Shown: piece after piece, positions 526 to 47,329 of the stretch
Layout of the letters: every line of letters begins with the position of its first letter
Position numbering within the stretch: the stretch's first letter is position 1
Source of the DNA: Siphonodentalium dalli
Lineage: Eukaryota > Mollusca > Scaphopoda > Gadilida > Siphonodentaliidae
Direction: 5' to 3'
Length of the DNA: 64,000 bases
Assembly: GCA_032622095.1 (NCBI GenBank)
Contig: CP136066.1
Coordinates: 91,905,319 to 91,969,318 of the forward strand
Translations under genes and position numbers: made by a program
The notes under the pieces: model-generated
Databases searched by the model: none
The model's input: the letters and a program-made list of their open reading frames with translations, nothing else
Told to the model about the DNA's origin: nothing

Positions 526-690
526 ACATATATGGCAAGAAACGTGGTCAAATTTTTTTGGGTATTCGTATTTTTAGGTGCTAACTGCTATATCAAAGTA
601 AAGTCAAAGATATTTATTGCCGGAAAAGCGGTTTCGTTTTTTTAGATATGGCAAGAAACGTGGTCAAATTTGTTTTGGTACTCATATTTT
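526..690 (+). repeat. Dispersed repeat M, copy 1 plus a partial second copy
   Basis: The block from ACATATATGGCAAGAAACGT at 526 to the T-run near 643 is almost identical to 18951-19067 and, inverted, to about 16519-16612. A second partial copy, again starting with GGCAAGAAACGTGGTC, runs from about 647 to 690, directly before the 68-bp satellite. The copy at 18937-19077 has terminal inverted repeats; here the outer ends are missing. Confidence 0.7.
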
Positions 691-1212
691 GAGGGGCTAA
701 GTGCTAAGTGCAACTGAATCAAGAAAAGGGCGTATCAAACTGAATTCTAGCAGTGCTATGCTACTAAACTGCTAAGGAATAAACATAATAAAAAAGAGAG
801 TTTCAAACTGAATTCTAGCAGTGCTATGCTGCTAAACTGCTAAGGAATGAAAATATTAAAAAAGAGAGTTTCAAACTCAATTCTAGCAGTGCTATGCTCC
901 TAAACTGCTAAGGAATGAAAATATATAAAAAAAAAAGTTTCAAACTGAATTCTAGCAGTGCTATGCTGCTAAGCTGCTAAGGAATGAAAATATTAAAAAA
1001 GAGAATTTCAAACTGAATTCTAGCAGTGCTCCGCTGCTAAACTGCTGAGGAATGAAAATATTAAAAAAGAGAGTTTCAAACTGAATTTTAGCAGTGCTCT
1101 GCTGCTAAACTGCTAAGGAATAAAACTATTAAAAACGAGAGTTTCAAACTCAATTCTAGCAGTGCTATGCTGCTAAACTGCTAAGGAATGAAAATATTAA
1201 AAAAGAGAGTTT

Positions 1213-2030
1213 CAAACTCAATTCTAGCAGTGCTCTGCTGCTAAACTGCTAAGGAATAAAAATATTAAAAAAGAGAATTTCAAACTCAATTCTAGCAGTG
1301 CTATGCTGCTAAACTGCTATGGAATGAAAATATAAAAAAAAGAGTTCCAAACTCAATTCTAGCAGTGCTATGATGCTAAACTGCTAAGGAATGAAAATAT
1401 TAAAAAAGAGAGTTTCAAACTGAATTCTAGCAGTGCTCTGCTGCAAAACTGCTAAGGAATGAAAATATTAAAAAAGAGAATTTCAAACTCAATTCTAGCA
1501 GTGCTATGCTGCTAAACTGCTAACGAATGAAAATATTAAAAAAGAGAGTCTCAAACGGAATTCTAGCAGTGCTATGCTGCTAAACTGCTAAGGAATGAAA
1601 ATATTAAAAAAGAGAGTCTCAAACTCAATTCTAGCAGTGCTCTGCTGCTAAACTGCTAAGGAATAAAAATATTAAAAAAGAGAATTTCAAACTCAATTCT
1701 AGCAGTGCTATGCTGCTAAACTGCTATGGAATGAAAATATAAAAAAAAGAGTTTCAAACTCAATTCTAGCAGTGCTATGATGCTAAACTGCTAAGGAATG
1801 AAAATATTAAAAAAGAGAGTCTCAAACTCAATTCTAGCAGTGCTCTGCTGCTAAACTGCTAAGGAATAAAAATATTAAAAAAGAGAATTTCAAACTCAAT
1901 TCTAGCAGTGCTATGCTGCTAAACTGCTATGGAATGAAAATATAAAAAAAAGAGTTTCAAACTCAATTCTAGCAGTGGTATGCTGCTAAACTGCTAAAGA
2001 ATGAAAATATTAAAAAAGAGAGTCTCAAAC
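1213..2030 (+). repeat. Higher-order repeat in satellite A (about 204 bp, three monomers)
   Basis: Diagnostic variants mark a three-monomer block. GCTATGGAATG occurs at 1316, 1723 and 1926 (spacings 407 and 203), and the variant TATGATGCT appears about 55 bp after the first two. The spacings are close to six and three monomers. This indicates block-wise amplification of an already diverged trimer. Confidence 0.7.
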
Positions 2031-2836
2031 GGAATTCTAGCGGTGCTATGCTGCTAAACTGCTATTCAATGCAAATATAAAAAAGAGAGTTTCAAACTGA
2101 ATTCTAGCGGTGCTATGCTGCTAAACTGCTAATGAATGAAATTGTAAAAAAGAGAGTTTCAAACTGAATTCTAGCGGTGCTATGCTGCTAAACTGCTAAC
2201 GAATGGACATATTAAAAAAGAGAGTTTCAAACTGAATTCTAGCGGTGATATGCTGATAAACTGCTAACGAATAAACATATTAAAAAAGAGAGTTTCAAAC
2301 TTAATTCTAGCGTTGATAAGCTGATAAACTGCTAAGGAATGAAAATATTAAAAGGGAGAGTTTCAAACTCAATTCTAGCAGTGCTATGCTGCTAAACTGC
2401 TAAGGAACGAAAATATTAAAAAAGAGAGTTTAAAACTGAATTCTAGCAGTGCTATGCTGCTAAACTGCTAAGGAATGAAAATATTAAAAACGAGAGTTTC
2501 AAACTCAATTCTAGCAGTGCTATGCTGCTAAACTGCTAAGGAATGAAAATATTAAAAAAGAGAGTCTCAAACTGAATTCTAGAGGTGCTATGCTGCTAAA
2601 CTGCTAAGGAATGAAAATATTGAAAACGAGAGTTTCAAACTCAATTCTAGCAGTGCTATGCTGCTAAACTGCTAAGGAATGAAAATATTGAAACAGAGAG
2701 TTTCAAACTGAATTCTAGCAGTGCTATGCTGCTAAACTGCTAAGGATTGAAAATATTAAAAAAGAGAGTTTCAAACTCAATTCTAGCAGTGCTATGCTGC
2801 TAAACTGCTAAGGAATGAAAATATTAAAAAAGAGAG

Positions 2837-3212
2837 TATCAAACTTAATTCTAGTAGTGCTCTGCTGCTAAGAAATAAAAATATATAAACTGAATTCTAG
2901 CAGTGCTATGCTGCTAAACTGCTAAGGATTGAAAATATTAAAAAAGAGAGTTTCAAACTCAATTCTAGCTGTGCTATGCTGCTATTCAAACTCAATTCTA
3001 GCAGTGCTATGCTGCTAAACTGCTAAGGAATGAAAATATTAAAAAAGAGAGTATCAAACTTAATTCTAGTAGTGCTCTGCTGCTAAGAAATAAAAATATA
3101 TAAACTGAATTCTAGCAGTGCTATGCTGCTAAACTGCTAAGGATTGAAAATATTAAAAAAGAGAGTTTCAAACTCAATTCTAGCTGTGCTATGCTGCTAA
3201 ACTGCTAAGGAA
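2837..3212 (+). repeat. 215-bp segmental duplication within satellite A
   Basis: The unusual junction AAACTTAATTCTAGTAGTGC, followed by a shortened monomer and TATATAAACTG, occurs at 2841 and again at 3056, 215 bp apart. Both are followed by the same GGATTGAAAATATT and TAGCTGTGCT variants. The spacing is not a multiple of 68, so the duplicated block carries a partial monomer. Confidence 0.75.
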
Positions 3213-3890
3213 TGAAAATATTAAAAAAGAGAGTTTCAAACTCAATTCTACCAGTGCTCTGCTGCTAAACTGCTAAGAAATAAAAATTTAAAAAAAGAGA
3301 ATTTCAAACTCAATTCTAGCAGTGCTATGCTGCTAAACTGCTAAGGAATAATAATATTAAAAAAGAGAGTTTCAAACTGAATTCTAGCAGTGCTCTGCTG
3401 CTAAACTGCTAAGGAATAAAAATATTAAAAAAGAGAATTTCAAACTCAATTCTAGCAGTGCTATGCTGCTAAACTGATAAAGAATGAAAATATTAAAAAA
3501 GAGAGTTTCAAACTGAATTCTAGCAGTGCTATGCTGCTAAACTGCTAAAGAATGAAAATATTAAAAAAGAGAGTTTCAAACTCAATTCTAGCAGTGCTAT
3601 GCTGCTAAACTGCTAAGAAATGATAATATTAAAAAAGAGAGTTTCAAACTCAATTCTAGCAGTGCTATGCTGCTAAACTGCTAAGAAATGATAATATTAA
3701 AAAAGAGAGTTTCAAACTCAATTCTAGCGGTGCTATGCTGCTAAACTGCTAAGGAATGGAATTATAGGAAAATAGAGTTTCAAACTGAATTCTAGCGGTG
3801 CTATGCTGCTAAACTGCTAAGGAATGAAAATATTAAAAAATAGAGTTTCAAACTGAATTCTACCGGTGCTATGTTGCTAAACTGCTAACC

Positions 3891-4915
3891 AAGGGCGATA
3901 TGTCTCTCTAGCCAGTTACATTAGACACAATAGTTGGTCATGGTGGTTGTTCAGTTTATCTAGGCAGTAATCTCGATGCATATAGCTACCAATGACGGCT
4001 AGTCTATAAACAGATATTGATAATAGGCACTATAGCCAATCAGGGTGGTATGTCTATATTGCCAGTTACATTAGTCACTGTAGCTAGTCGTGATGGCTAT
4101 TTAGTACACGTGGGCAGCAATATTGATCAAAGTAGCTATAAGTGTATAATATGCTACACAGTAAGCTAGTAAATGTAGTCACTATAGCTAACATGGGTGG
4201 TACGTCTATCTAGCTAGTGAATCAGTCACTATAGCTAGCCATTGTGGTTAATCAGTACATGTGGGCAGTAGTATTGATCAACATAGCTAGCTATAACGGG
4301 TAATCTTTCCAGAAAGCTATTAAGTGTAGTAACTCAAGCTAACCTGGGTGTCAAGTCTATCTAGACAGTTAATTATTCATATAAACAGTCATTGTATATA
4401 TGGGCAGTTATATAGATCAAAGTAGCCAGATAGGAAGATAGTCTATACCTCAAGCTAGTAATATAGTCACTGCAGCTAGCCAGGGTGGTAAGTCTATCTA
4501 ACCAGTTACTGTTGTCATAATGGCTAATCATGGTGGTTGTGCAGTTTAAATAGGCAGTAATAATAATCAATATAGCTAGCACTGTGGATGGTCTATATAT
4601 CCAGCTAATAGTAATAGTCACTATAGCTCATCAGGGCGGTAAGTCTATTTAGTGAGCTACATTGGTCACTGTATTTAGTCATTGTGGTAATTCAGTACAT
4701 ATGGACAGTAATATCGATCAAAGTAGCTAGCTATGGTGGATAATCTATACAGAAAAGCTGGTAAGTGTAGACATCATAGCTCACCATGGTGGTAAGTCTA
4801 TCTAGCCAGTTCCATTAGTCACTATAGCTGGTCATGATGGTCACAAAGTTTATACGGGCAGTAGTATTTATCAACGTAGCTAACTATATCTTTCAAGCCA
4901 GCATGTAATACTAGT
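3891..4915 (+). repeat. Satellite B: diverged ~150-bp tandem repeat, about 7 copies
   Basis: The motif GTCTATCTAGCCAGTTACAT, or close variants, recurs near 3901, 4050, 4202, 4351, 4491, 4641 and 4795. Between copies lie further shared blocks such as GGGCAGTAATATTGATCAA and TAGTCACTATAGCTAGC. Copies are much more diverged than in satellite A. It joins A directly at about 3890 and C at about 4920. Confidence 0.85.
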
Positions 4916-4924
4916 CACAAAAAA

Positions 4925-5984
4925 TAATTCATATTATATGTCCAGAATCCAAAGATTTGGGAACCTACCCATCTTCTATGATGGGCCCTTAAAATTGTGA
5001 ACCTAAAATTTGAACCCGTGCAGTTTAAACATGTCAGCTATAAATGAGTCATGTACAGATGCAAAACGGTCCATATATGGACCAACGTCCTTATTATATG
5101 CCAGAATCCAAAGATATAGGCACATCAATACACATTTTCTGTGATGGGCCCTTAAATGTTTGAACCCCAAAATGATATACTAGTATGTGCAGTGATAACC
5201 TATGTCAACTATATATGAGTCACATACAGATACAGGAGGGTCCAGATATGTCCCAACATCCATATTATATTCCCAGAATTCAAAGATTTAGGCACCTACC
5301 CATTTTCTATGATGGGCCCTTAAAATGGTGAACCCCAAATTGGAGCCCGTGTAGTCTAAACCTAAGTCAACTATATCGGAGTCCTGTACAGATGCAGGAG
5401 ATTCCAGATATGTCCTAAAACCTACAATATATTCCCAGAATCCAAAGATTTAGGCACCTGCCCATTTCTATGAAAGGGCCCTTGAAATGGCGAACCCCAA
5501 ATTTGAGCCCATGCAGTTTAAACCTAATTCAACTACATGTATATATGAGTCATGTACAGATGCAAGACGGTCCACATTTGTCCCAACATCCATATTATAT
5601 GCCAGAACCAAAGTATAGGCACATACACAATTTCTGTTTGAACCCAAAATGAAGTTCGTGCAGTGAAAACCTAAGTCAACTATATATGAGTCATGTACAG
5701 CTGCAGGACGGTCTATATATGCCCAACATCCATATTATATGCCAGAATCCAAAGATATAGGCACATACACATTTTCAGTGATGGGCCCTTAAATGTTTGA
5801 ACCCCGATATGGAGCCCGTGCAGTGAAAACGTAAGTCAACTATATCGGTGTCATGCACAGATGCAGAAGGTTCAGATATGTCCCAACATCCATATTATAT
5901 TCACAGAATCCCAAGATTTAGTCACCTACTCATTTTCTATGATGGGGCCCCTAAAATGGTGAACATCAAATTTGAGTCTCTGCA
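4925..5984 (-). repeat. Satellite C, left arm (about 160-180 bp period, inverted)
   Basis: About six units containing CCAGAATCCAAAGATTTAGG, GATGGGCCCTTAAAATGG and GTGCAGTTTAAACCTAAGTC. They are the reverse complement of units at 6859-7010, 8751-9527 and 15977-18010. Unit length varies with indels. The array ends at 5984 against inverted-end segment E, beyond which the same repeat continues in the opposite orientation. Confidence 0.9.
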
Positions 5985-6858
5985 GTGTAGGGGAAACTGG
6001 GGTGGAGTGGGACTGTTTGCAGTGGAGATAACTCCATACCATCGATGAGTTGCCTATTCTGTATGGATTCAGTTGATGCTCATAAGATGTCCCCAGACCA
6101 TATGACATGAATCAAACGTGTAGCACGCATATTATATTTGTTATGTGATTTTTATGGAATCTGAGCAATATTGTTCCGAACACAACATTTTGAAATTTTT
6201 CATATGATAGATAGTTTCTTACCGACTCTGAGCTCTGAAACAACTGTGTTTGGGCTTCAAATTGTATATCTGTTTCAATACCTTAGCATAGACGTGTTGC
6301 TAAAATATTGACTCAACTGATACATGACTCTGTCGGGGTAGAGTGGGACATGTGGATCGGTGTACATTGGGACTGTTAGTTACAGTAATATAGAGTTGAG
6401 CAGATCTTTGAAAAATACCATTCATGGTTGCTTTTATCTTCTACATGTAGACCCCAAACAGATGTTTTTTCAATTAGTTTGTCAGATTAGAATTGGGCCC
6501 TGTGGATTGAAACTGTGTCCCACTCTTCCCCGATTGAGTGGAAGTATCAATAAAGCCTTGTGTTTCAACTATATGAATACGTGTTACAACAGAACGAATT
6601 TCCCTCTTTGAATGAATAACTATTTCGGTTGTTGTTATAGGGTATGTTATGGAATTCCAATGGGTGACCCACTGTACCCCCTGACCCGGGGAAGTGTGAG
6701 ACATTTGGGTACCTTGTTTAAGTTGCCAGCATGGGAAATATATCAAGATGGCAATGATGTATAAATAGTACAAAAAGCAACAGTTGATAATGTAGCACAA
6801 ATTGAGTAATGAGCATTCAAAGAAAAAATGTCCCACTCCACACCAGTTCCCACTACAC
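5985..6858. mobile_element. Element E: 874-bp inverted-end segment at the centre of the C palindrome
   Basis: The left end GTGTAGGGGAAACTGGGGTG and the complement of the right end GTGTAGTGGGAACTGGTGTG continue into GAGTGGGAC on both sides, about 29 bp with few mismatches. Inside, a second inverted pair of the same type occurs: GGGGTAGAGTGGGACATG near 6335 and TGTCCCACTCTTCCCC near 6510. A TA dinucleotide near each end (5988 and 6854) would fit a TA-duplicating element, but the flanks are themselves inverted copies of satellite C, so no target duplication can be read. No transposase was found. Confidence 0.65.
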
Positions 6859-7010
6859 ATGGTTCACCATTTTAAGGGTCAATCATAGAAAAAGGGTATG
6901 TGTTTAAACATTTAGATTCTGGGATATATTGTGGATAATGGGACATATCTGGACCCTCCTGAATCCGGACTTGACTCAGGTATAGCTGACATAGGTTTTC
7001 ACTGCACTGG
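6859..7010 (+). repeat. Satellite C, right arm segment 1
   Basis: One unit (GGTTCACCATTTTAAGGG, TTCTGGGATATA, ATAGGTTTTCACTGCAC) in the orientation opposite to 4925-5984. It is interrupted after GCACTGG by element D and resumes at 8751. Confidence 0.85.
7004..7010 (+). repeat. Target-site duplication of element D, left (GCACTGG)
   Basis: GCACTGG directly precedes the CAGGGGGTG end and is repeated at 8751-8757 directly after CACCCCCTG. Satellite C units elsewhere read through this place without interruption (CACTGCACGGGCTCAAAT). Confidence 0.85.
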
Positions 7011-8750
7011 CAGGGGGTGGGGTCGGAAAAAAAATTCAGGCACATATGGCATTTTTTCCCTTTCGATAATTTTTTGTACCCACCCACCCCCACCGCCAAT
7101 TTTTTTTCCGTTTTCGACAGTTTTTTCAGACCATTTTTTGACACCCACCCCCTTAACACACTAAAACAGTAATAAAGATGCGAAACCCGGCGGAAACAGT
7201 TGTTAATAACTTTCAAGTGAATTTAGGCCCATACTACTATGTGAGCTTCCTATGTTTTGAGAAAACACAAGCATGACTATTTTCGTTTTCTGAATGGATG
7301 TCAGAACACATCTATGGCGCTAGTAACATTTTGATATTCTACCTGATTCGACCAGTGATTCGACTGCTATCTCCCAACATTTAAAGAAATGGAATTATGC
7401 AATGCTGCCTTACAGAATATATAGTCCGATTTGAGATACAACTATGATTAAAAGACATTTTTGACAGCTGATCAGTCACGTAGCTCACTTCTTCATTTAA
7501 AAGCAATAAGAAGCAACATTTATTTCATACTACTTTTGTAAATATGTGTCCAAATATGTCAAGTTGACAAATCGAACGCACACTTAGTGTGCATTATGTA
7601 TGGTTAAAGTCGGTTTTGTTGATTTGAACAATTGTTTAGTTGAGGAACAAGGTTACAGCAGTCTATAGATGAGAATGTTTTGGTATTTACTTTTTTGTTT
7701 TGTTTTTAGTTGTATAAGTCTGTAACGTTCAGTCTTAGCTCAATATTATCATGTCCAACTTTATGTGATGAGAAATCCACTTCTATTTTTACATTGTTAT
7801 GACAAAGGTTGTTTTACTGACAAGCCGTCCAGATTTGTTTTTCATTTGTTTTATTTGCACATTTAATTGTGTTTAGATCAATGTCTAGATTGTGATAAAA
7901 CAAGCCATAGATTCACATGAAATAATGTCGCCATTAATACTTCTTTTGAATTATGACAAGTTCAGTTATATAGGCAGAATGACTATAGTGAAGTTTTATT
8001 GGTATAATCAAACTTTGAAAACCAAACTTGGTAAAATTTGACAATCAAAGGAAGTTTTACTTGGCTTATTGTTATGTTTTATCAAAACGAAGATATCTAG
8101 TCTAATAGTGATGCCAAATACTCTATTTCCTGTTATCACAGTGTTTACTTTTTTATTTTAAAGTTTTATTTTTAATCAGCCCAGCTGAGCCCAGTTGCTG
8201 TTTCATAGTTTTATAGTGATGAGCATTCCTCTTATTTTTCTTTTATACCTTTATGCTAAATGTTATTTGTGTTTGTTTTATATGCAGATTATTCTAAAAC
8301 AAGATAATTTTGTTATGATAATGGTTGTTGTTTATATGACTGTTCAGTGTATAAGATATAACTTATCAGCTGTACCCTCCTGTAATACAAAACTGAATAA
8401 GTCTACAAGCAGTATATTTTATTACAAGTGTGTATATTTGATTAGCTCGGTTTAACATCAAAAGGCAGACTTTGCTTTTTAAAAATCGCTCATGCAGGAT
8501 CACGTTCGAATTTCCCATGGACTAACACCCATTTATAAAACATACAACTGGATAACTGTCTGCAGTCATTTTACCAGTTAGAGTTACATTATTTCTCTCA
8601 TTCAAAGTGGTTTTGAAGCCCAGCTCATTGCCAAAACACTAAAAAAACAAGCAGGAAATTTTGTTTTTAGTTGCGGACAAAATTGCTTGTTGGTGGCTTT
8701 GACCACCCACCCACCCCGGCAACCGTGCCGGATTTTGTTTTCACCCCCTG
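7011..8750. mobile_element. DNA transposon D, 1740 bp, non-autonomous, 7-bp target duplication
   Basis: The element begins CAGGGGGTGGGGTCGG and ends TTTTCACCCCCTG. The outer 9 bp are perfect inverted repeats, and weaker similarity extends to the GGCAC motif about 20-25 bp inside. Both ends carry GC-rich subterminal stretches (GGTGGGTGG type, with hairpin CCGGCAACCGTGCCGG at the right end). The 7-bp duplication GCACTGG flanks it. A 173-bp relative at 10804-10976 has the same ends and its own 7-bp duplication. CA-GG termini with 7-bp duplications suggest the P or hAT-like groups; I cannot decide between them. The interior is AT-rich with no transposase frame. Confidence 0.85.
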
Positions 8751-9527
8751 GCACTGGCTCAAATTTGGGGTTCTGGCATCTAATTTGAATATCGGGAGAA
8801 TAGTTTACTTAGGTGACACCTGCATAGGCTCAAATTTGGGGTTCACCATTTGAAGGGCCTATCATAGAAAATTGTTATGTGCCTACATCTTTGGATTCTG
8901 GGATATAATATGAATATTGGGTCACATCTGGACCATCCTGCATCTGGCCATGACTCGGGTATAGTTGACATAGATTTGGCATAGGTTTTCACTGCACTAG
9001 CTCAACTTTGGGATTCACAATTTTAAAGGTCCATCATAACAGATGGGTATCTGACTATATCGTTGGATTCTGGCATATAATATGGATATCGGGACATATC
9101 TGGATCATCCTGCATCTGGACATGACTCAGGTATAGTTTACTTCGGTTTAAACGGCTCAAATTTGGGGTTTACCATTTTAAGGGCCCATTATAGAACATT
9201 CTAATGGCCTATATCTTTGGATTATGTAATAAAATATGGATATTGGGACATATCTGGACCGTCCTTCATCTGGACATGACTCGGGTATAGTTGACATAGG
9301 TTTTCACTGCACGGGCTCAAATTTTGGGTTCACCATTTTAAGGGCCCATCATAAAATGGGTATGTGCCTATATCTTAGATTATGGCATGCAATATGGATA
9401 TTGGGACATATCTGGACCCTCCTGTATCTGGACATGAATCAGGAAAAGCTGACATATGTTTTCACTGCACGGGCTCAAATTTGGGGTTCACCATTTTAAG
9501 GGCTATCATAAAAAAAATGTTATGATT
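8751..9527 (+). repeat. Satellite C, right arm segment 2
   Basis: About five units. TTTTCACTGCACGGGCTC recurs at 9301 and 9459 (158 bp apart). The array is cut at 9527 by hAT-ended element F and resumes at 15977 in mid-unit: left ...TTATGATT, right GTGCTATACCTTTGGATTCT, which together restore the usual unit order. Confidence 0.9.
9520..9527 (+). repeat. 8-bp target-site duplication of F (left copy TTATGATT)
   Basis: TTATGATT ends directly before TAGGGACC and is repeated at 15969-15976 directly after GACCCCTA. The two copies are identical, which indicates an authentic transposition event. Confidence 0.9.
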
Positions 9528-9884
9528 TAGGGACCTGCGAATATTCGAGATTCGATTCGATGTCGATATCGGGCACCCGATTCGAGATCGACACAGAATC
9601 GGTCTGCTGATTCGGATATGTTCGAATCGGTGTTACTTTGGTGTAGTCTCGTTTTTTTTCGTCTAGATAACATATGCAAATGATATGAACTCACAAAAAT
9701 TGAAGCACAAGGTTGCCAAGTTAGCCAACATAGGTAATTTTGAATGTATGTCATTCAGAATAAACGTGCATGTTGGTGTTTGATCTATTGTGGTGTGAAC
9801 AGTTTATCAGATAACTATAACTACCATTGGTATCGGACTACAACAATTATATAGCTGTAATTGTCCGAGAGCCTGCTGGGTTCT

Positions 9885-10790
9885 ATTGGAACAATTGCGT
9901 ACGAAAGATTTGATACCCCAGATTTGTTCCACCCCAGGAACGTTTGAAGAAATCCGATTTCTTAAGTTCCGCATTCCTGGCGTTTTGGGGCCGGAGACCC
10001 CACAAAAATTCCAAAATTGACTATTTGCACTTTTGAGTAAAAAGCTGATTTGTTATATTATTAGTACTCCAGCAATCACTGACCAATAATACACAATTTC
10101 TGAAACGAAATTTCCTGGCGTTTTCATTTCAGAAGGGGGTTTCTGATCGTACCCATAAAAACCCAAAAATCACTTCTATTTGCATTTTTGAGTACAAAGC
10201 TGATTTTTATATTAATAGTGCTCCAGCAATCACTGATCAATAATACACAATTTCTGAAACAAAATTTCCTGGCGTTTTCATTTCAGAAGGGGGTTTCTGA
10301 TAGTACCCCCAAAACCACAAAACATTACTTCTATTTGCAATTTCGAGTACAAAGCTGATTTTTTTTATTAATAGTGCCATAATCATCACTGATCGATGAT
10401 ACACAATTTTTGAAATGAAATTTCCTGGCGTTTTCATTTCAGAAGGGGTTTCTGAATGTACCCCAAAAAAATATATAATATTTTCACATACTGTCGAATA
10501 CAAAGCAATCACTGATCAATAATACACAATTTCTGAAACAAAATTTCCTGGCGTTTTCATTTCAGAAGGGGGTTTCTGATAGTACCCCCAAAACCACAAA
10601 ACATTACTTCTATTTGCACCTTCGAGTACAAAGCTGATTTTTTTTATTAATAGTGCCATAATCATCACTGATCGATGATACACAATTTCTGAAATGAAAT
10701 TTCCTGGCGTTTTCATTTCAGAAGGGGTTTCTGAATGTACCCCAAAAAAATATATAATATTTTCACATACTGTCGAATACAAAGCACAAT
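9885..10790 (+). repeat. Array G, left arm (about 155-bp period) with boundary block
   Basis: The boundary block (GAAATCCGATTTCTTAAGTT, GGAATGCGG-type sequence) is followed by units containing CCTGGCGTTTTCATTTCAGA at 10114, 10268, 10424, 10547 and 10703. Spacings are 154, 156, 123 and 156. Array G recurs inverted at 15060-15490, so it forms subterminal inverted repeats of element F. Confidence 0.85.
10231..10788 (+). repeat. 279-bp tandem duplication in array G
   Basis: The two-unit block from CACTGATCAATAATACACAA to TGTCGAATACAAAGCA is present twice with very few differences. CCTGGCG landmarks lie at 10268/10547 and 10424/10703, each exactly 279 bp apart. It is a recent local duplication. 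Confidence 0.85.
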
Positions 10791-10803
10791 TTTAAGGTGA
10801 AAC

Positions 10804-10976
10804 CAGGGGGGGGGGGTGAAAAAAATAATTCCGGCACGTATGCCGGGGTGGGTGGTCAAAGCCACCAACCGAAAACGGAAAAATATTTGGCGGTGGGGGT
10901 GGGTGGGTACAAAAAATGATCGAAAGGGAAAAAATGCCATACGTGCCTGAATTTTTTTTCCGACCCCAAACCCCTG
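10804..10976. mobile_element. 173-bp derivative of element D nested inside F
   Basis: The segment begins CAGGGGGGGGGGGTGAAAAA and ends CCGACCCCAAACCCCTG. It is flanked by a perfect 7-bp duplication GTGAAAC (10797-10803 and 10977-10983). Both subterminal regions match element D: the left carries hairpin CCGGCACGTATGCCGG and GGTGGTCAAAGCCACC, the right matches D's left end (GGAAAAAATGCCATACGTGC). It is therefore a deletion derivative (MITE) of D that inserted after F had formed. Confidence 0.9.
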
Positions 10977-11189
10977 GTGAAACTGGAAAAATTTATATAA
11001 ATATGCAAATCTACTGAACACAAACGTTCCGCGCGTTTCAAGGAGGAAAATTCGTTATTTTTTATTATAAACAAATGTAGTAAAACATGGAAGAAAACGA
11101 AAATTGATATTTTAGTCCGGGAACCAGGTCAATCAAACGTGAACACCCCCAGGATTAAACTTCATTCATTTTTCGTAAGGATGTCTACT

Positions 11190-11560
11190 CAAACTATTTA
11201 GACGTTAAAATGTGGCAGTGTATGTTCCGGGCAATATGGCGGCGATTTCCGGAGTATACCCCACTCACTACATACATGTTCAGCAAAAACCTATTGTTCT
11301 TGATTCCATGCCATATGCCTGTCATTTCCTGCATAATTTGACTGAAAAAAAGAGTCCAAAATGGAGGACAAAATGGCAACCGAAAGTAACAAAAAGAGCA
11401 TTTTACAGTAACTTTAACCGTAGGTGCCAGTTGCGCCACCATACATGATGTCCAATCCTAATACGATAACAGTAAGTCAAAACCCGAGTTTTCAAAAATG
11501 ATGACGAAAATGGCAATCGGAAGTCAACAGTTGAAGTGCTTTACACAATGAGTATCACAT
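11190..11560 (+). repeat. CCATTTTG-type inverted block, left copy in F
   Basis: Contains CCAAAATGGAGGACAAAATGG, and later ACGAAAATGGCAATCGGAAG, each about 20 bases. The complements occur at 13440-13480 (GGCCATTTTGTCCC) and 13757-13785 (CTTCCGGACACCATTTTGTC). The block belongs to the nested inverted layers of element F. Confidence 0.6.
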
Positions 11561-11579
11561 GCCATCTAAATTACCACGA

Positions 11580-12720
11580 GTATTGTCGTAGCCCTGCAAC
11601 GATTGTTCCAAACCACAGCGCATGGTAGTGCCCCAAACAATTCAACGAACGTTCCAAGCTACACAGGTTTTGTCCCAAACTACCAACAATGAGTGTCCCT
11701 AACCATCCAACGTGTGATCCCAATCATACAATGAGTGGGCCAATCCATCCAATGAATGCCCCAAACCACCAAATGAGTGTCCCAAACAATCCAGCGAATG
11801 TTCGAAAGGAAAAGAGTGTCCCATATGCACCAAAATCTTGGGCCAGGCCATCCGAAGAGAGTTCTATGTCATACAGCGGGTGTCCCAAACCACCAACTGT
11901 CGTCTCAATCCATTCCACGGCCCAATCAGTGAACCAGTCGACAAATGAGTGTCTCATTCCACCATTTGTGTGTCCCATATGCACATCTAGTGTCCAAAAC
12001 CACCCAATTGGTCTCAAACTTTCCAACGGGTGGCACAAACAATTAAATAGTGCCATGTACGATATGCACCTGATTCCCGACCAGCACAGATAGTCCTCCA
12101 AACCATGCATCTGGTACCCCAACACACACAATGGGTATCACAGGCCATCCAAGGAGTGTCTCATTCACCCGATCAGTGTCCCAACCCTGCAACTGTTGTT
12201 CCAAATCACAGTGCATGGTACTAGTAGTGCCCCAAACAATGCAACTGGTGTTCCTAACCAAATAGGTTCAAACCACCAAAAGTCGTCTCAATTTATAAAA
12301 TGGCACAATCATTGAATAAATCGACAAATTGATGTCACATTCAACTTGCATCTCAATACATTTAAACAAGTGTACAAAACCCTCCTCCGAGTATTCAACC
12401 CTTTCGTGACGGGTGATGTGCTGATACAGCATTAATGATCCTGTGCCATGCATTCTCCCATATACATGTATGCGGGTCTCCCATAGGGAGTCCTGCATAT
12501 GTTATGAGAATTCTGTGACTCGCATGGCCAAGGTAAGTAATGTTAGGCCAATGCATTTCCTTATATATGCGATGCACCCTATGGCACAGGATTTTCGCAA
12601 AATGTCAAGAAGCTACGGTCAAGGATTAAGACCATCAAATGAGTGTTCCAAAACACCCAATGGGTTTAAAATCCAAACCAAGAGACACTCGCTGGGTTGT
12701 TCGAGATATCCGATGTATGA
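11580..12720 (+). repeat. Minisatellite H, left arm (about 23-25 bp, degenerate)
   Basis: Many imperfect copies of a unit like TGTCCCAAACCACCCAATGA. Around 11690-11810 phase markers (ATGAGTG, GTGTGAT, ATGAATG) fall every 22-25 bp. Open frames of up to 135 codons exist here, but they only translate the repeat (recurring PNHP-type peptides) and are not taken as genes. The orientation flips at about 12720-12740. Confidence 0.75.
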
Positions 12721-12739
12721 TTTTGTATAACAGTTGTGA

Positions 12740-13330
12740 CAATAATTCGATGGTGTGGGACATTCTGCATGGGGTGGTTTTAGACACCAGGCGGATTGTT
12801 TTTAGACATTCTTGGTCCGGGTGGTTTGAGGCAATCGTCATGTTGCATGGGACGGCCATTGGATGGGTATGAACACTCATTGATTGATTTTATTGGACAC
12901 ACATGGGATGGTGTGGGGTTCTCAATTGATGATTTGAGATGCTAGTTGTGAGGTTTGGAACACCGCGTGCATGATTTGGGACATTCTCTGGATGATATAT
13001 GGTGTCAATCGTTGGACGGTTTGGATTACTCATCACGGCGTGTTTGGGCACCATTTGGATGGTTTGCGACACTAGTTGGGTCGATTGGGATGCGTATTGG
13101 GTGGTTCTGGACACTGGTTGGCAATTGGCAGTGCCCGTTCTATGGACTGTTTTGGTTTAGTATACTATATTAATTAAGATGGTGGTTTGAGACCCCAGAT
13201 GCGTGGACTTAAGCTCCTTAGTTGACACTCGTTAAGTGGTTTTGGAAACTCATTGGATATGTTTGGATACAAGTTTGGTGGCTTTTGACACTCATTTCCT
13301 GGCATATAGCACTATTGGCTATAAATTATA
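12740..13330 (-). repeat. Minisatellite H, right arm (inverted)
   Basis: The same short unit in reverse complement, for example TTTGGACACTCATTGGATGG-like copies near 13250 and GGTTTGGGACAC-like copies throughout. With 11580-12720 it makes a palindrome whose centre is also roughly the middle of element F. Confidence 0.7.
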
Positions 13331-13379
13331 TGAGAACATTTAGTTACAATATAAATTAATGAAAATAATATGTTTTTAT

Positions 13380-13930
13380 TTTTGATGCCATGGAAACAGT
13401 CTGGTGACCTTTAGCCGAACTTGCCAAATTTTACTGCTGCCGGTGGCCATTTTGTCCCTATTTTCGATATTGATGCCATCGTTTCTGCTAAAATGGGCGG
13501 TTCATGTCTGCCATCGTATTGGTATTCAGTATTCAGTACACGGGTGAGTTCAATTACCTTCTGGGCATTACAATAATAATTGATTTTTCTTCGAAATTGT
13601 ATTTAAAATCTATTTTAATTTGATGGACACTGAAGGGCCAAATCCTCGTGATATGGCTCATTACTATCAGATATCGATTTAGCATGGTACATTTTTTTTT
13701 TAACAAAAAATGGAAATTATCTGGTAAAATGTAGCGAAATTTGCACAATTTTACCACTTCCGGACACCATTTTGTCCGCTATTTTGGATTTTGTAATGAC
13801 AACAATAATAATATATTAATAATTTCACAAGGAACGAAATATCATACAATAAATCTATGCACGTAAATAGGACTTTTTTCAAAGAACTCCATAAAATTCC
13901 CCCCAAAGCGGATTTTGAAAATGTTGTTCC
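13380..13930 (-). repeat. CCATTTTG-type blocks, right copies in F
   Basis: Two related blocks about 340 bp apart each contain GCCAAATTTTAC- or CACAATTTTACC-type sequence, a CCGG step and CATTTTGTCC. The blocks are inverted relative to 11330-11560. Similar CTTCCGGTGGCCATTTTG and CCTCAAAGCGGATTTTATC sequences occur outside F at 59430-59650. Confidence 0.55.
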
Positions 13931-13939
13931 CCCGATTCT

Positions 13940-14720
13940 GCCCGAAAAAATGACAAAAATATTGCATATTATAGATTTTCCATTGCTTTATCTGTTATAT
14001 GAGAATATGAAATGCTAGATGTTACTTCACCATTGATTCTGACCAAGAATAATACAGATCTTAGCTAAAGGGATTCTCCAGAAAGTAGTTCTCAGAAAGT
14101 ATACACGACGAAAGTTTTTCTGTAAAATCAATTAGAAAACTGGTCACGGAGAGTTGCTCGCCCACTTTTGAAAACACACATGACGTTGGATATCAACTCA
14201 TGAATAACTCTTGAGTTGGCGCCGATAGTTGAATGACACTACTTCAATGCGAATGTTGTTCAGCCGGGTTCTGACAACAGCAATCAATTCTGCCCGTGTT
14301 TATACTTGACATAAATCTGTCATCGTCCTCGCTTCAAATGTCTATATAGTTCTGCAGCTTTCGAAGAAATTCCCAACGCGGTCATACTTGACATTGATTC
14401 GCGCGAACTTGTTTTTCCCCATTGTGCAGGATTGTGCCCATGATAGGGCCACATCATTTATCCTATGGGGTGAGTCCGGTGTTTAGGTATCCTGTTATAT
14501 AGCAACAACATACTTTCAAATAAATCGAATCATAAATTGGAATGTCCCACCTGAAAGTGTTCATAGAATACAGGCTTCGCATAATACATGATTGTACAGC
14601 TTAATAAATACCTAACAAAGTCACGTTTAATTAAAAGGAATATTGCATTGTTTTATCGCTTATATGAGAATATGAAATGCTAGGTGTTACTACACCATTG
14701 ACTCTGACCAAGTTTTTTTG
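13940..14720 (+). repeat. Direct repeat about 670 bp apart inside F
   Basis: ATATGAGAATATGAAATGCT followed by AG-TGTTACT-CACCATTGA-TCTGACCAAG occurs near 13996 and again near 14662. The intervening sequence shows nothing further that I recognise. Confidence 0.65.
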
Positions 14721-15059
14721 ACACCATTTGGTCTGTGAACAATGATGATAGTGGAGATAGTATTAAGAAAAAATATTATCTGTGCGTACGGCAGTGCAAA
14801 TAATTTTTTTTTTCGGGTTTTCATTGGGACTTAATACGAACCCACCATCTCCTTAACACATAGCCCCCAGCACAAAAAATTACCCAACTCGATAATACTT
14901 ACTCCTATATAATTAAGTATTATTGGGGTAGGGTCAATTGTTTCACGTGGCATGTGCTTCTTAAATGAAAACGCACGGAATTTCGTTTCTTAAACGAGGT
15001 TATTATGACTAGCGATAGCAGGATAACTATTGAGGAAATTAATTTTCTAGTTTTTTGGG

Positions 15060-15490
15060 GGCACTTTAAAAAAAACCATTCAGAAATGAAAACGCCAAGG
15101 AATTTTGTTTCAGAAATTGTGTATTATTAATCAGTGATGACTAGAGCACTATTAATATGAAAATCAACTTTGTACTCGAAAGTGCAAATAGAAGTCATTT
15201 TTGGGGTTTTTGGGGATACTTTCAAAACCCCCTTTCTGAAATGAAAACGCCAGAAAATTTTGTTTCAGAAATTGTGTATTGTTGATCAGTAATTGCTGGA
15301 GCACAATTAATAAAAAAAATCAGCGTTGTACTCAAAAGTGCAAATATAATTCATTTTTGGGGTTGTGTGGGGTCTCTGGCCCCTAAACGCCAGGAATGCG
15401 GAACTTAAGAAATCCGATTTCTTGGAACGTTCCTGGGGTGTAACACATCTGGGGCATCAAACCTTTCGTATGCGATTGTGCAAATAGACC
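15060..15490 (-). repeat. Array G and boundary block, right arm (inverted)
   Basis: Two units with TCTGAAATGAAAACGCCAG and ACTCAAAAGTGCAAATA, then GGAATGCGGAACTTAAGAAA and the block ending TTCGTATGCGATTGTGCAAA. Each is the reverse complement of sequence at 9885-10790. The right arm has fewer units than the left. Confidence 0.85.
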
Positions 15491-15976
15491 CATCAGGCTC
15501 CCTGATTATAACGATGTACCCATTTCCAAGTGTGTCAAATTCTGTGTTATCTTTATTAAATAATGTAGACAAGTTACTTCAATTCCATGGGGTTGGTGAT
15601 ACGTTGATTGAACTACATGTCTTTAAATGTCATACTGTCACTTCTTGTGTAAATGGTCGCCATGACACAGCTAGATAGAAATTCAATGCAACATATCCCA
15701 AACCCCCAATGAGACCGAGAGTGACTTGCCTATGTCATGATTTCCCTAAAAAAGATGCAAGTTCCAACTGCTGTTTAAGAAGATTAACATTTTTATATAG
15801 TATCTAGTGAATTTTGCAGTTTTTGTAATGAGACACCGAATTACACACTGGTAAACAATGTCAACCACTAGCTGATTCGATTCGAGATTCGATTCGATGT
15901 CGATATCAGGAAGGAGATTCGATATCGAGATTCGATTCGATGCAAAATCCCCGATTCGCAGACCCCTATTATGATT

Positions 15977-18010
15977 GTGCTATACCTTTGGATTCTGGGC
16001 ATAAGATATGGATATTGGGACTTAGCTGGACCATCCTGCATCCGGACTTGATTCATGTATAGTCATCTACATTGGTAGATATGCTGGGCAACTTGTTGTT
16101 TTCCCCACTGTTATTAAAGTTGTCATGTTTACAACCAAGTGGCATATGTTTTCACTGCACGGACTCAAATTTGGGGTTCGGGTTCGCCATTTTAAGTGTG
16201 CCTATATCTTTAGATTCTGGTATTTAATATGGATATTGGGACATATTGGGACCCTCCTGTATCTGGACATGAATCAGGAAAAGCTGACATATGTTTTCAC
16301 TGCACGGGCTCAAATTTGGGGTTCTCCATTGTAAGGGCCCAGCATAAAAAATGGGTATGCGCCTATATCGTTGAATTCTGGCATATAATATGGATGTTGG
16401 GACATATCTGGACCGACCTGCATCTGGGCATGACTCACGTATAGTTTACTTAGGTTTAAACTTGAGGGGCTCAAATTTGGGGTTTACCATTTTAAGGGCC
16501 CATCATGGAAAATTGTTATGTGCAAATATCTTTGACTTTTCTTTGATATAGCAGTTAGCACCTAAAAATACGAATACCCAAAAAAAATTGACCACGTTTC
16601 TTGCCATATATGTTTTTGGGGTGCAATATGGATATTGGGACATATCTGGACCATCCTGTATCTGGACATGAATCAGGAAAAACAGACATATGTTTTCACT
16701 ACACGGGCTCAAATTTGGGGTTCTCCATTGTAAAGGCCCATCATAAAAAATGGGTATGCCCCCATATCGTTGGATTCTGGCATATAATATGGATGTTGGG
16801 ACATATTTGGACCACCTGCATCTGGGCATGACTCACGTATAGTTTACTTAGGTTTAAACTTGAGGGGCTCAAAATTGGGGTTTACCATTTTAAGGGCCCA
16901 TCATGGAAAATTGTTATGTGCATATATCTTTGGATTCTGGGATGTAATGTGTATATTGGGACATATATGGACCATCATGTATATCTACATGACTCAGGTA
17001 TAGTAGACATACATTTTCACTGCACGGGCTCAAATTTGGGGTTCACCATTTTAAGGGCCCATCATAAAAAATTGGTATGTGCCTATATCTTAGATTCTGG
17101 CATGCAATATGGATATTGGGACATATCTGGACCCTCCTTTATCTGGACATGAATCAGGAAAAACGAACATATGTTTTCACTGCACGGGCTCAAATTTGGG
17201 GTTCTCCATTGTAAAGGCCCATCATAAAAAATGGGTACGCCCCCATATCGTTGGATTCTGGCATATAATATGGATGTTGGAAATATCTGGACCGACCTGC
17301 ATCTGGACATGACTCGCGTATAGTTTAGTGACATGTTTACACTTCACAGGTTCAAATTTGGGGTTCACCATTTTAAGGGCCGATCATAAAGAATGAGTGT
17401 GTGCCTATATCTTTAGATTCTGGTATATAATATGGATGCTGGGACAAACCTGGACCATCCTGAATCTGGGAATGACTCACGTACAGTTTTCTTGGGTTTA
17501 AACTGCACTCGCTCAAATTTGGGGTTCACCATTTTAATGGCCCATCGTGGAAAATTGTTATGTACCTGTATCTTTCGATTCTGAGATATAATATTTATTT
17601 TGGGACAAATCTGGACCATCATGCATCTGGACATGACTCATTTATAGCTGACATAGGTTATCACCGCACGGGCTCAAATTCAGGGTTCTCCAATTTTAGG
17701 GCCCATCACAGAAAATTGTTATGTGCCTATATCGGATTATATATATAGTATGGATGTTGGGACATTGCTGGACCATCATGCATCTGGACATGACTAATGT
17801 ATAGTTTGCCTAGGTTTAAACTGCACGGGCTCAAATTTTGGGTTCATCATTTTAAGGGAGCATCCTAGAAAATGGGTATGTGCCTATATCTTTGTATTCT
17901 GGCATATAATATGCATATTGGGACTTTTGTGGACCATCCTGCATTATTAAGTTCTGGACTTGACTTAGGTGACATAGGTTTTCACTGCACAGGCTCAAAT
18001 TCGAGATTCA
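15977..18010 (+). repeat. Satellite C, right arm segment 3
   Basis: About twelve units with CTCAAATTTGGGGTTCACCA, TTAAGGGCCCATCATAAAAA and GGATATTGGGACATATCTGG. The CACTGCACGGGCTC marker at 17018 and 17179 gives a 161-bp step here. One unit is interrupted by an inverted copy of repeat M (16519-16612). Recurrent open frames of 60-80 codons come from the satellite period and are not genes. Confidence 0.9.
16519..16612 (-). repeat. Dispersed repeat M, copy 2 (inverted, inside satellite C)
   Basis: The complement of copy 1: CTTTGATATAGCAGTTAGCA, then TTGACCACGTTTCTTGCCAT. It replaces a few bases of a satellite C unit between ATATCTTTG and TTGGGGTGCAATATGG, so M can insert independently of the large structure. 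Confidence 0.75.
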
Positions 18011-18169
18011 AGGATGTGTGAACTATTTCATTTTCCTAGTTGGAGTAATTCCCTGATAGGCATTTGTAACTATGTAACAAAAAACACGTATGGGTGAAAT
18101 ATTTTCATTTTTCTAGTTTGAGTAATCTCTGATTTCCAAATGTAACTATGTAACAGTTTGAAACTTTTT
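18011..18169 (+). repeat. Two diverged copies of an ~80-bp unit at the C/A junction
   Basis: ATTTTCATTTTTCTAGTTTG-GAGTAAT and TGTAACTATGTAACA each occur twice (about 18028-18080 and 18098-18153). Satellite B, present on the left side of the palindrome between A and C, is not seen here. Confidence 0.5.
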
Positions 18170-18925
18170 TTTTATAAATATTTTCGTTGCTTAGCAGTTT
18201 AGCAGCATAGCATCGCTAGAATTCGATTTGAAACTTTCTGTTTTAATATTTTCATTCGCTAGCAGTTTAGCAGCATAGTACCGCTAGAATTGAGTTTGAA
18301 ACTCTCTTTTTTAATATTTTTATTTCTCAGCAGTTTAGCAGCATAACACCGCTAGAATTGAGTTTGAAACTCTCTTTTTTAATATTTTCATTCCTTAGCA
18401 GTTTAGCAGCATAGCACTATTAGAATTGAGTTTGAAACTCCCTTTTTTAATATTTTCATTCCTTAGCAGTTTAGCAGCATAGCACTGCTAGAATTGAGTT
18501 TGAAATTCTCGTTTTTGATATTTTAATTCCTTAGCAGTTTAGCAGCAATGCACTGCTAGTATTGAGTTTGAAACCCTCTTTTTTAATATTTTTATTCCTT
18601 AGCAGTTTAGCAGCAGAGCACTGTTAGAATTCAGTTTGAAACTCTCTTTTCTAATAATTCCATTCCTTAGCAGTTTAGCAGCAGAACACTGCTAGAATTC
18701 AGTTTGAAACTCTTGTTTTTAATATTTTCATTCCTTAGCAGTTAAGCAGCAGAGCACTGCTAGAATTCAGTTTGAAACACTCTTTTTTAATATTTTCATT
18801 CCTTAGCAGTTTAGCAGCATAGCACCGCTAGAATTGAGTTTGAAACTCTCTTTTTTAATATTTTCATTCCTTAGCGGTTTAGCGGCATAGCATTGCTAGA
18901 ATCGAGTTTAAAACTCTCTTTTCTC
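18170..18925 (-). repeat. Satellite A, inverted array, about 11 copies
   Basis: Units with TTAGCAGTTTAGCAGCATAG and GCTAGAATTGAGTTTGAAAC at 68-bp steps (18191, 18259, 18327). They are the reverse complement of 725-3890. It closes the palindromic order A-B-C-E-C-A and is much shorter than the left array. Confidence 0.95.
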
Positions 18926-18936
18926 CAGACCTCGCG

Positions 18937-19077
18937 TTCGGAAACCAAAAACATATATGGCAAGAAACGTGGTCAAATTTTTTTGGGTATTCGTATTTTT
19001 AGGTTCAAATTGCTATATCAAAGTAAAGTCAAAGATATTTATTGCCGGAAAAGCGGTTTCTTTTTTTGGTTTCCGAA
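18937..19077 (+). mobile_element. Repeat M, copy 3, with 15-bp terminal inverted repeats
   Basis: TTCGGAAACCAAAAA at the left is the exact complement of TTTTTGGTTTCCGAA at the right. The 141-bp segment between holds the M core shared with 526-643. Its size and inverted ends fit a MITE. No clear target duplication is visible (CTCGCG on the left, GTGGGTAG on the right). Confidence 0.6.
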
Positions 19078-26474: not shown

Positions 26475-27122
26475 TGTCCCAAAAATCCCCATTTCTATAA
26501 ATAAAACATCCATGCCCCCACTGGATACCAAGAAGCACGGATTGGGAGAACACCATTAGATGGCGTAATTAACCAGTTCTGGATAAACCCGACTCGAATA
26601 GCTACTCAGTACTAGGTCTGGAGAAAATCATGCTGTGTTCTATTACCAAATAGCTCTGTGTCGCTATAAATAACTTCTCATGCCACCCATGCATTATGAC
26701 GTCCCATCACATTACCAATGCCGGATATCGACTGTATACTTATTATAGGATGCTTCAAACTGGCGTTATTTTTAGTTATGTGACAAATCTGCGACTGTAG
26801 ACATTCCAACACTCGCCTGAATGGCTACATCGCTTTGCCGATACTATGTTTTGATTGGTTGAGACTGACGTAAAGCTTGTTTATTGTAATAGGGATCCCC
26901 CGAACACTCCGACTCAATACAGCGTCTGTGTTTTAACCAGAGCTGACAATTAACGAGTGTATTTCCAAATTCTCTTTGAAAAACATTACTCTCATGAATT
27001 CATTTATGTTCAGCTAAGAGGAAGATTTGCCAAATTCTGATTGGGGGATCGCCTAAACCGAACCAGAACATCTCATGAGAAATTGATAGAAACGTTCACA
27101 ATAAACTATAAGAAAGACATTA
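26475..27122. other. Unannotated stretch
   Basis: No supported feature was found. Confidence 0.4.
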
Positions 27123-27516
27123 GCACCCCCGTGTACATGGTATCGCCAAAACCGAGGGTATCGCCAAAACCGAGAAAATGGGAAAGTCATTTTCACGTAT
27201 ATGATATGGGGATATGTTTGTTTCTCATCGTAAAATAGACAACGAACAACGCATGTGTATGTCCACATGAAGCATGAGTCTTTATCCACCCGCTGTCAAT
27301 CAGTTTTCCCAGATCAAACCATTTAATATTTTTTGGCGGTTTTTTGCTTTTGCTCACTCAAATTTTCGAGAACATCCACCCACCAGTATAGTTCCTGGAC
27401 ATCCACGCTGCCAAAACAAATGCCGGTATATAGTTGAATCTGTCAATGAAGCATAGGATTGAACAGAATTTAAAAAATCAGTGTCGTCTTCAATATCCGA
27501 GCGATATGGATGGACC
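27123..27516 (+). repeat. Long-range inverted duplication R1, copy 1
   Basis: This 390-bp block is nearly identical to the reverse complement of 47328-47733. Landmarks are GTATCGCCAAAACCGAG twice in tandem (27140-27175), CATATGATATGGGGATATG-like sequence, AACATCCACCCACCAGTATA and TCCGAGCGATATGGATG. The right-hand copy has a small indel in the CAAAAAC region. One end abuts the inverted arm at 27513; in the other copy the same end abuts a LINE 3' tail. Confidence 0.9.
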
Positions 27517-43240: not shown

Positions 43241-43533
43241 ATGCCAATCACCACCAAATATCAGTATGTAAATATTTGCAAATGTCTCTATTTATTGACC
43301 ACTTCTGATTATTCATGTACATCATTTCCTATTGAAAATATCCAGAAAGTAAGAACGACAGTCAAGTCCATTTGTGAGGTGCCACTATCAGTATTGTTTG
43401 TTGAGTCGGAGTCCAGTTGCTTCCCTATATTGATTTCGAACCACCGTCTGAAATATGACGTGTGCCTTGAATCAGTATAGGGCCAGCAATTGGTATCTTC
43501 GACTCATCAAAACGACCACTAGCATCTAAAACT
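43241..43533 (+). other. Upstream region of the plus-strand LINE, with an unexplained 79-codon frame
   Basis: A frame of 79 codons (43241-43480) precedes the main ORF. It has no recognised motif. It may be a remnant of ORF1 or part of the 5' UTR. Confidence 0.3.
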
Positions 43534-46500: not shown

Positions 46501-46830
46501 GCTGGACGCAGAAAATACAACATTGTTCATTGTCGCATACGTAATATCTGTAGTGAACTCCGATCTGATATGTTCAACAATTTCATCGCTGATAGCCCCG
46601 CATGTCCCTGTGGAAATCGATATGAGGACGCCTATCACTATTTCTTCATGTGCCCATTGTACCAAAGAGAACGCTCCGAATTTCTAGTGAAACTGACCCG
46701 TGAAAATATCGCAATAACCGATACTGCTGAACTCATGTGTGGAATACCCAATGTCTCGTCCCAAAAAAATAAGAAATTATTTCTCATCACACAACAATAT
46801 ATTGCAGCGACTAAGCGTTTTGATCCCTAA
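43534..46830 (+). pseudogene. CR1/Jockey-type LINE polyprotein (2A-like, APE endonuclease, RT, zinc), two nonsense codons
   Basis: One frame of about 1098 codons is broken only by TGA at 44614-44616 (before RKYKN, where family members usually have Trp) and TGA at 45592-45594 (inside GSIL-PFLF, where Gly is usual). Residues 20-40 are a hydrophobic stretch ending GDIHVNPGP, a 2A-like motif known from several APE-type LINEs. The endonuclease follows: FNVRSIRNK, FTETHLD, GDFNSN, LDPIITS, GVSDHLG. The RT has NVIPIFKKGD, NYRPISLLP, HQSGFLSGHST, FCDISKAFE, GVPQGSIL and intact MYADD (YADD codons 45658-45669). The C-terminus has CPCGNRYEDAYHYFFMC and ends YIAATKRF. It is the youngest LINE here. Confidence 0.93.
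43642..43653 (+). other. 2A-like NPGP site at the N-terminus of the LINE protein
   Basis: Codons 37-40 are Asn-Pro-Gly-Pro, preceded by SGDIHV and a leucine-rich hydrophobic run. Canonical 2A is D-x-E-x-NPGP; here the Glu position is His. In 2A peptides the ribosome skips the Gly-Pro bond, which would release a ~39-residue leader from the endonuclease-RT protein. Confidence 0.7.
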
Positions 46831-47329
46831 ATGGTCTTATTTGTTTTACTTCCGAATCCACTTAAAATTGCTTCCGGAATTAAAATTTGTTACGTGGCAG
46901 TCACCTCACATATGGACAAACCTCACATTCGAACATTTCGTTCTGATTAGTTATCTGTATTGCCTTCCTGAGCACAACAGTAACCAAAAATCGAATACAA
47001 GTGTTTCATTGTTTCTACCGCCATAATACAAATACTAACAATAGCTAATTATATTAACACTCGCGCCAATCGTACCAAATACTTCAAATCGTCCTTAAAC
47101 ACAAATTTCCACGGCCAGTAGCCAACCTAGATCTAGCCCGATAATCTCTGGAAGGCAATACATATTACGTACATCAAAACTTGTCACCATGTAAATACGT
47201 TTGTATCGTCATCTTGATTTCATGTGTGTTGCTATATTGTGTTGGCAGAGGGGCTTCATAAGTTGTAAACACTTGTGCCCCAATCCCTTTTGTATATTAT
47301 GCAAATAAAATATGTTTCAAGTCAAGTCA
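46831..47329 (+). other. 3' UTR of the plus-strand LINE
   Basis: About 500 bp after the TAA at 46828. It ends ATGCAAATAAAATATGTTTC followed by AAGTC-AAGTC, a short tandem tail like those of CR1-type elements. It directly abuts repeat R1. Confidence 0.65.

Follow-up and report, generated by a model that had tools for sequence, protein, structure and literature searches.

The stretch analysed here, referred to as the window, comprises 64,000 nucleotides of the Siphonodentalium dalli genome (C6:91905319-91969318) and carries at 9528-15968 a 6,441-bp element that combines the ends of a hAT transposon with an interior of nested, inverted tandem arrays (Table 1). Miniature inverted-repeat transposable elements (MITEs) of the hAT type have YAGGG ends and 8-bp target-site duplications, and both marks, which an earlier note on this DNA had claimed, are present: TTATGATT stands at 9520-9527 and again at 15969-15976, and the TAGGG inverted ends read TAGGGACCTGCGAAT on the left and, reverse-complemented, TAGGGGTCTGCGAAT on the right. 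The short YAGGG-type terminal inverted repeat TAGGGRYCTGCGAAT, found at both element ends, recurs at 643 + 625 places in the genome searched (2.23 Gb, nine contigs), with 0 for the reversed control. The 8-bp duplication is exact in the window and in the relatives L031 and L036, and agrees at 7/8 positions in L029 and L032.

Inverted layers and mobility of the hAT-ended element

The layered inversion described for the interior was recovered in the boundary block, the G array, the CAAAATGG/CCATTTTG blocks and minisatellite H, so that the block 9858-15509 has the make-up of a foldback element, with long inverted tandem-array repeats flanking a non-coding middle. The boundary block together with the first array units (9869-10314) is inverted relative to 15500-15053 (85.8% over 450 bp, E 4e-145), and G arrays extend over 10021-10471 (period 154), 10225-10786 (a 279-bp unit present twice) and 15081-15372 (period 155). 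CAAAATGG occurs at 11357/11369 and its inverted counterpart CCATTTTG at 13447/13767, a layer that taken alone gives a weak match in the window (126 bp at 62%, E 5e-5) and a stronger one in copy L031 (E 3e-7). Minisatellite H is indeed an inverted array, with 22 of 24 plus-strand unit matches within 11629-12664, 16 of 19 minus-strand matches within 12688-13290 and five stray matches outside both arms, but its period is 21 bp rather than the proposed ~24 bp (the arms give autocorrelations of 0.398 and 0.386, respectively; maxima of 0.325 and 0.333 in 200 shuffles each). Likewise, the inversion about a shared centre stands, although the switch of orientation is placed at about 12.68 kb rather than near 12.7-12.8 kb. 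In 11027-14950 the top inverted match reaches 62.5 bits and in the H region likewise 62.5 bits, whereas 100 dinucleotide shuffles yielded maxima of 32.6 and 29.7, respectively. A mirror copy of 13225-13345 lies directly before the equivalent of window position 11543 in four of the five independent copies introduced below, which suggests that the window copy is missing a portion of a once more complete palindrome.

The composite is mobile as one unit and is a non-autonomous hAT-ended element: five copies with the same interior (L029-L033), chosen because they matched the hAT end without the flank seen in the window, lie outside the larger repeat that hosts the window copy, and the element has thus moved as a whole, arrays included. 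G-array and H sequence is present in each of the five. In L030 and L033 it runs up to a truncation ahead of the right end, while L029, L031 and L032 possess both ends and each has its own 8-bp duplication (CTTTATAT/CTGTATAT, 7/8; TTTGGTTT/TTTGGTTT, exact; and ATGTGATT/ATGTAATT, 7/8, respectively). The genome search for relatives sharing both ends, recommended in the earlier note, accordingly yielded five independent long copies as well as abundant short forms.

As had been remarked, no transposase is visible. The longest stop-to-stop frame in the element encodes 154 amino acids and falls in the minisatellite, no frame above 160 amino acids is present in three independent copies or in the short relative L036, and a Pfam scan of 10 frames (nine of the 39 from the element, one from the host repeat) gave 0 matches above cut-off. 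The lone listed match, to a rotavirus family (E 0.075, below its cut-off), was rejected as a transposase remnant. The genome is rich in Dimer_Tnp_hAT domains (best 150 of 1,916 candidates scored), several of them in stop-free frames of more than 600 amino acids. The search for an autonomous hAT with the same ends came back empty in a weak comparison: no Dimer_Tnp_hAT place was tied to TAGGGRYCTGCGAAT ends among the 150 scored domain candidates and the 100 of 1,268 end places listed, all on C1, and by eye no end place lay within 50 kb of nine Dimer_Tnp_hAT places on C1 below 164.8 Mb. One end pair 4.8 kb apart (C1:68072416-68077239) could be a fuller relative.

Within the left half of the interior, the stretch 10508-10975 consists of a 279-bp duplicate of 10225-10507 (98%) and a 172-bp element (10804-10975, CAGGGG...CCCCT, with GGTGAAAC on either side), and is covered by no listed alignment to a relative. 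The end of this small element resembles that of a 1.7-kb element at 7011-8752, which has GCACTGG on both sides (94% over 107 bp, inverted).

A larger host repeat and its passenger

The DNA surrounding the hAT-ended element is itself repeated. A query spanning the flank and left end (9400-9900) matched almost end to end at 33 places, window counted, out of the 40 scored (best 40 of 2,284 candidates), and ten flank-bearing copies (c1-c10) were fetched at 20 kb each. Five of the ten (c1, c3, c7, c8 and c10) show a full run that begins with a 68-bp array, a 1-kb block, an inverted 160-bp array, the 5989-6860 block and a 160-bp array, and continues with the 7160-8680 block, a 160-bp array, the hAT-ended element, a further 160-bp array and an inverted 68-bp array; the other five show it partly, interrupted or cut by the fetched stretch. 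The 68-bp arrays are inverted at the ends and the 160-bp arrays inverted about 5989-6860. Terminal repeats delimit the run, TAGATATGGCAAG at the left end and CTTGCCATATATG at the right. The right end is intact in seven of the ten copies, all of which end at the identical base with differing flanks; it is truncated in c2 and not shown in c5 and c7. Both ends are visible only in c1 and c8 among the ten, where a target duplication is present, exact in c8 (CTATTTAT) and 6/8 in c1 (GGAAAATA/GGAAAGTG). With its terminal repeats, inverted arrays and target duplication, the host repeat also has the traits of a foldback. Elements of the Mutator superfamily are recognized by a 9-bp target-site duplication and a Mutator-like element (MULE) transposase; a 9-bp reading of the host duplication was rejected in favour of 8 bp, counting the conserved right end CCATATATG (7/7 copies with an intact right end).

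TTATGATT flanks the hAT-ended element on both sides in 11 of 11 host copies (the ten fetched and the window), so that it entered the host repeat a single time, and the host spread afterwards. The hAT-ended insertion is therefore a passenger fixed in a larger repeat, which is the source of most copies seen and which the earlier note had not recognized. Over 13641-14150, host-borne copies diverge by a mean of 2.65% (45 pairs; 10 of 11 had the segment), host-borne and independent copies by 4.86% (40 pairs), and independent copies among themselves by 5.85% (six pairs; four of five copies). The case illustrates that a flawless target-site duplication, seen in a single copy, may be a misleading guide to which element was responsible for the copying. 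The tandem arrays on either side might also suggest an ordinary satellite cluster with a coincidental duplication or an assembly error; we regard this as next to impossible, given that independent sites bear duplications of differing sequence, that the flank and end were found on all nine contigs, and that the host architecture recurs in copies on eight of them, window counted.

The window copy of the host repeat is locally rearranged. Its right end, about 18945-19060, is inverted relative to other copies, and extra pieces of the right terminal repeat are fused outside the left end (527-642) and lie inside the right 160-bp array (16535-16612); because of the rearranged right end, the end coordinate 18930 is approximate. 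The 5989-6860 block has inverted ends of its own (TGTAGGGGAAACTGGGGTGGAGTGGGAC on the left) and sits at the mirror point of the inverted 160-bp arrays. In one host copy, L034 (C6:7701000-7710999), two hAT left ends stand about 3 kb apart in a partial tandem duplication.

A probable inner element with its own ends

Short hAT relatives define the limits of the interior. Among 100 listed TAGGGRYCTGCGAAT places, there are nine convergent pairs 1.1-1.3 kb apart and two pairs of about 0.63 kb. L036, a 1.27-kb relative with the exact duplication CTCAGAAT, matches the window at 9524-9578, 9644-9771 and 9770-9857 and then passes straight to 15510-15968, so that it joins 9857 to 15510 and the block 9858-15509 is absent at one precise point. 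A 241-bp query across this junction gave a continuous match at 40 of 40 scored places (92-100%, L036 counted; best 40 of 1,051 candidates). An inverted repeat of its own bounds the absent block on both sides. The ends of the block are probably TAGTCCGAGAGCCTG (left) and TAATCAGGGAGCCTG (right), and TAA would be its target duplication only if L036 lost one base, as judged from the one empty junction read. Separately, L036 contains at 195-784 a 590-bp stretch that is absent from the long form and includes a motif like another hAT end, CAGTGTTCGTGCTGG.

The inner ends and core also occur away from the hAT junction. With up to three mismatches, the inner terminal repeat was found at 263 + 263 = 526 places (reversed control 0), and the left hAT/inner junction, over 38 bases, at 19 + 31 = 50 (control 0), a lower bound since the three-mismatch limit may miss true composites. 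A junction is found within 12 kb of 18 of the 100 inner places listed, and the other 82, belonging to 70 loci, have none that close. Ten of the 70 loci consist of inner ends paired in convergent orientation and separated by 0.3-8.0 kb (by 4.4-5.9 kb, roughly the length of the inner block, in seven cases); in two additional clusters the places share one strand. A central 36-mer occurs at 57 + 84 = 141 places (control 0), and the 100 listed divide into 39 near a junction and 61 away from one. Of the 44 junction-remote core places on C1-C5, 19 are accompanied by a listed inner end no more than 8 kb away; the other 25 are not. The earlier view of the palindrome as a form of a single hAT element was consequently not upheld: the inner block has its own inverted ends, far commoner than its junction with this hAT, and short hAT relatives do without it at one precise point. 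That note had also named what would overturn it, namely TIRs belonging to a short MITE and interior arrays that arrived separately; this largely describes the origin of the element as we see it, but not its mobility.

Taken together, we consider it probable that the locus is a stack of three layers, in which a foldback element sits in a hAT MITE, the composite became mobile, and it was later taken up as cargo by a larger repeat. In this scheme, a short non-autonomous hAT (a backbone of about 0.8 kb with TAGGG ends) would have received a separate foldback-type element some 5.6 kb long, arranged from outside to inside as inverted ends, 154-bp arrays, more mirrored blocks and an inverted 21-bp minisatellite. 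A hAT transposase acting in trans would recognize the hAT ends and move the composite whole, more than once, leaving 8-bp duplications; one composite would then have entered a 160-bp array of the larger element (16-18 kb, with its own terminal repeats and inverted 68-bp and 160-bp arrays), whose later multiplication would have brought it as a passenger to most present sites, the window among them. The arrays themselves may have grown by unequal exchange or replication slippage.

The polarity of the first step, insertion rather than loss, is suggested by the inverted repeats at the joint and the excess of inner ends. The opposite order, in which the long form is primary, the hAT built its own foldback interior and the short forms are deletion derivatives multiplied as MITEs, would account for the ends common to both forms and the abundance of the short one, and it has a precedent in DAIBAM, interpreted in PMC4079207 as a Tetris foldback that has undergone deletion. 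We judge it improbable, in that the absent block is bounded by its own inverted repeats, inner ends (526) far exceed hAT/inner junctions (50) and core sequence lies away from junctions in 61 of the 100 places listed. Nevertheless, the inner block may have been lost precisely, and besides the DAIBAM precedent several points weigh against the three-layer scheme. No hAT source bearing TAGGGRYCTGCGAAT ends emerged from the 150 domain candidates scored and the 100 end places listed. The backbone of L036 is 9-17% diverged from that of the window, depending on the segment, and with its 590 bp of own sequence it is a sister form rather than an exact ancestor. Of the 526 inner places, those listed number 100, without mismatch and confined to C1-C5; a composite with more than three junction mismatches would count as independent; and the apparent independence of the inner element is read from places of its end and core patterns.

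The inner block could itself be a stack, with the boundary block and G array, the CCATTTTG blocks and H each a separate nested insertion. This notion is compatible with the three-layer scheme, and we hold it as a tentative, less likely refinement. The layers differ in repeat unit and divergence (the outer pair is 84% identical in the window, H pairs 58-76% over four copies compared), and the 0.3 to 8.0 kb spanned by convergent inner-end pairs would suit it; however, none of G, CCATTTTG and H was found to have an empty site, the short end pairs being unread, and the further mirrored block that four of the five independent copies hold before 11543 is as expected of one decayed palindrome.

Table 1. 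Features of the composite element and its host repeat (window coordinates)
Feature	Position	Strand	Basis or remark
Left 8-bp target-site duplication TTATGATT of the hAT insertion	9520..9527	.	both sides in 11/11 copies, window counted
Right 8-bp target-site duplication TTATGATT	15969..15976	.	both sides in 11/11 copies
hAT backbone, left part; TAGGG end, subterminal motif GATTCGATTCGATG	9528..9857	+	colinear with left side of 1.27-kb L036
hAT backbone, right part, ending CCCTA	15510..15968	+	colinear with L036 867-1297, directly after left part there
Probable inner foldback-type element inserted in hAT backbone	9858..15509	.	exact ends and TAA target duplication inferred
Left terminal inverted repeat (boundary block) of inner element	9869..9999	+	inverted relative to 15371-15500
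Right terminal inverted repeat (boundary block) of inner element	15371..15500	-	inverted relative to left boundary block
G array, left arm, about 154-bp units	10000..10786	+	10508-10786 duplicates 10225-10507 and was seen in no relative
G array, right arm, about 155-bp units	15053..15372	-	tandem and inverted matches
CAAAATGG block, left arm	11357..11376	+	inverted counterpart of CCATTTTG
CCATTTTG blocks, right arm	13447..13774	-	inverted counterpart of CAAAATGG
Minisatellite H, left arm, 21-bp units	11629..12664	+	unit matches, autocorrelation
Minisatellite H, right arm, 21-bp units	12688..13290	-	unit matches, autocorrelation
Larger host repeat as a whole (its left terminal repeat: TAGATATGGCAAG)	643..18930	.	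16-17 kb in two fetched copies with both ends; end approximate
68-bp satellite array, host left arm	724..3888	+	tandem/inverted matches, copies
68-bp satellite array, host right arm	18155..18922	-	tandem/inverted matches, copies
160-bp array, host inverted arm	4927..5987	-	inverted matches, copies
160-bp array holding the hAT-ended insertion	8800..9513	+	resumes at 15980-18010

Relation to known systems and neighbouring repeats

In its ends, 8-bp duplication, lack of coding sequence and abundant short forms, the backbone resembles known hAT MITEs, whereas the present element reaches 6.4 kb owing to the captured inner element. The sea urchin TU and Drosophila FB foldbacks have large inverted arrays, a likeness to the present element in general description. 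Large palindromic tandem-array elements are already known as foldbacks, and PMC4079207 mentions those of sea urchin and Drosophila. Tetris, a foldback of the Drosophila virilis group, is described there with repeats of about 220 bp, 8-10 bp target-site duplications and no conserved open reading frames. Tetris and DAIBAM share with the element studied here their non-autonomous nature, long TIRs composed of an outer domain, tandem repeats and an inner domain, a variable middle, 8-10 bp duplications and a shorter relative with common ends; they differ in that their authors suggest Mutator rather than hAT, and that the description, as far as excerpted, includes no captured second foldback or carrier element (PMC4079207). 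Galileo is similar in having TIRs extended by internal tandem repeats or inserted elements and 7-8 bp duplications, but according to PMC4168063 it belongs to the P superfamily and is not an element within a hAT MITE. The single layers are therefore of known kinds, and it is the three-fold stacking, involving two mirror-array elements with different ends, that is unusual; no description of a foldback captured by a hAT element was found in the titles and abstract starts of a partial literature search. The locus thus presents a large palindromic element ferried by a different transposon, repeatedly mobile and then multiplied by a third, and provides a worked example of how satellite arrays are able to spread genome-wide as transposon cargo.

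The host repeat (68- and 160-bp arrays) and the inner element (154- and 21-bp arrays) have different ends and a like architecture, which raises the rather doubtful prospect that a common process in this genome reshapes DNA transposons of unrelated origin into elements of mirrored arrays. Hairpin-mediated double-strand-break repair might then make inverted satellites from ordinary ends, and stacked palindromes of up to about 18 kb would still transpose, possibly feeding small-RNA silencing.

Elsewhere in the window, 27118-27512 and 47328-47737 form a 410-bp inverted repeat (93.7% identity) with arms 20 kb apart, between which frames resembling a long interspersed nuclear element (LINE) were recognized by eye at 43471-46830.

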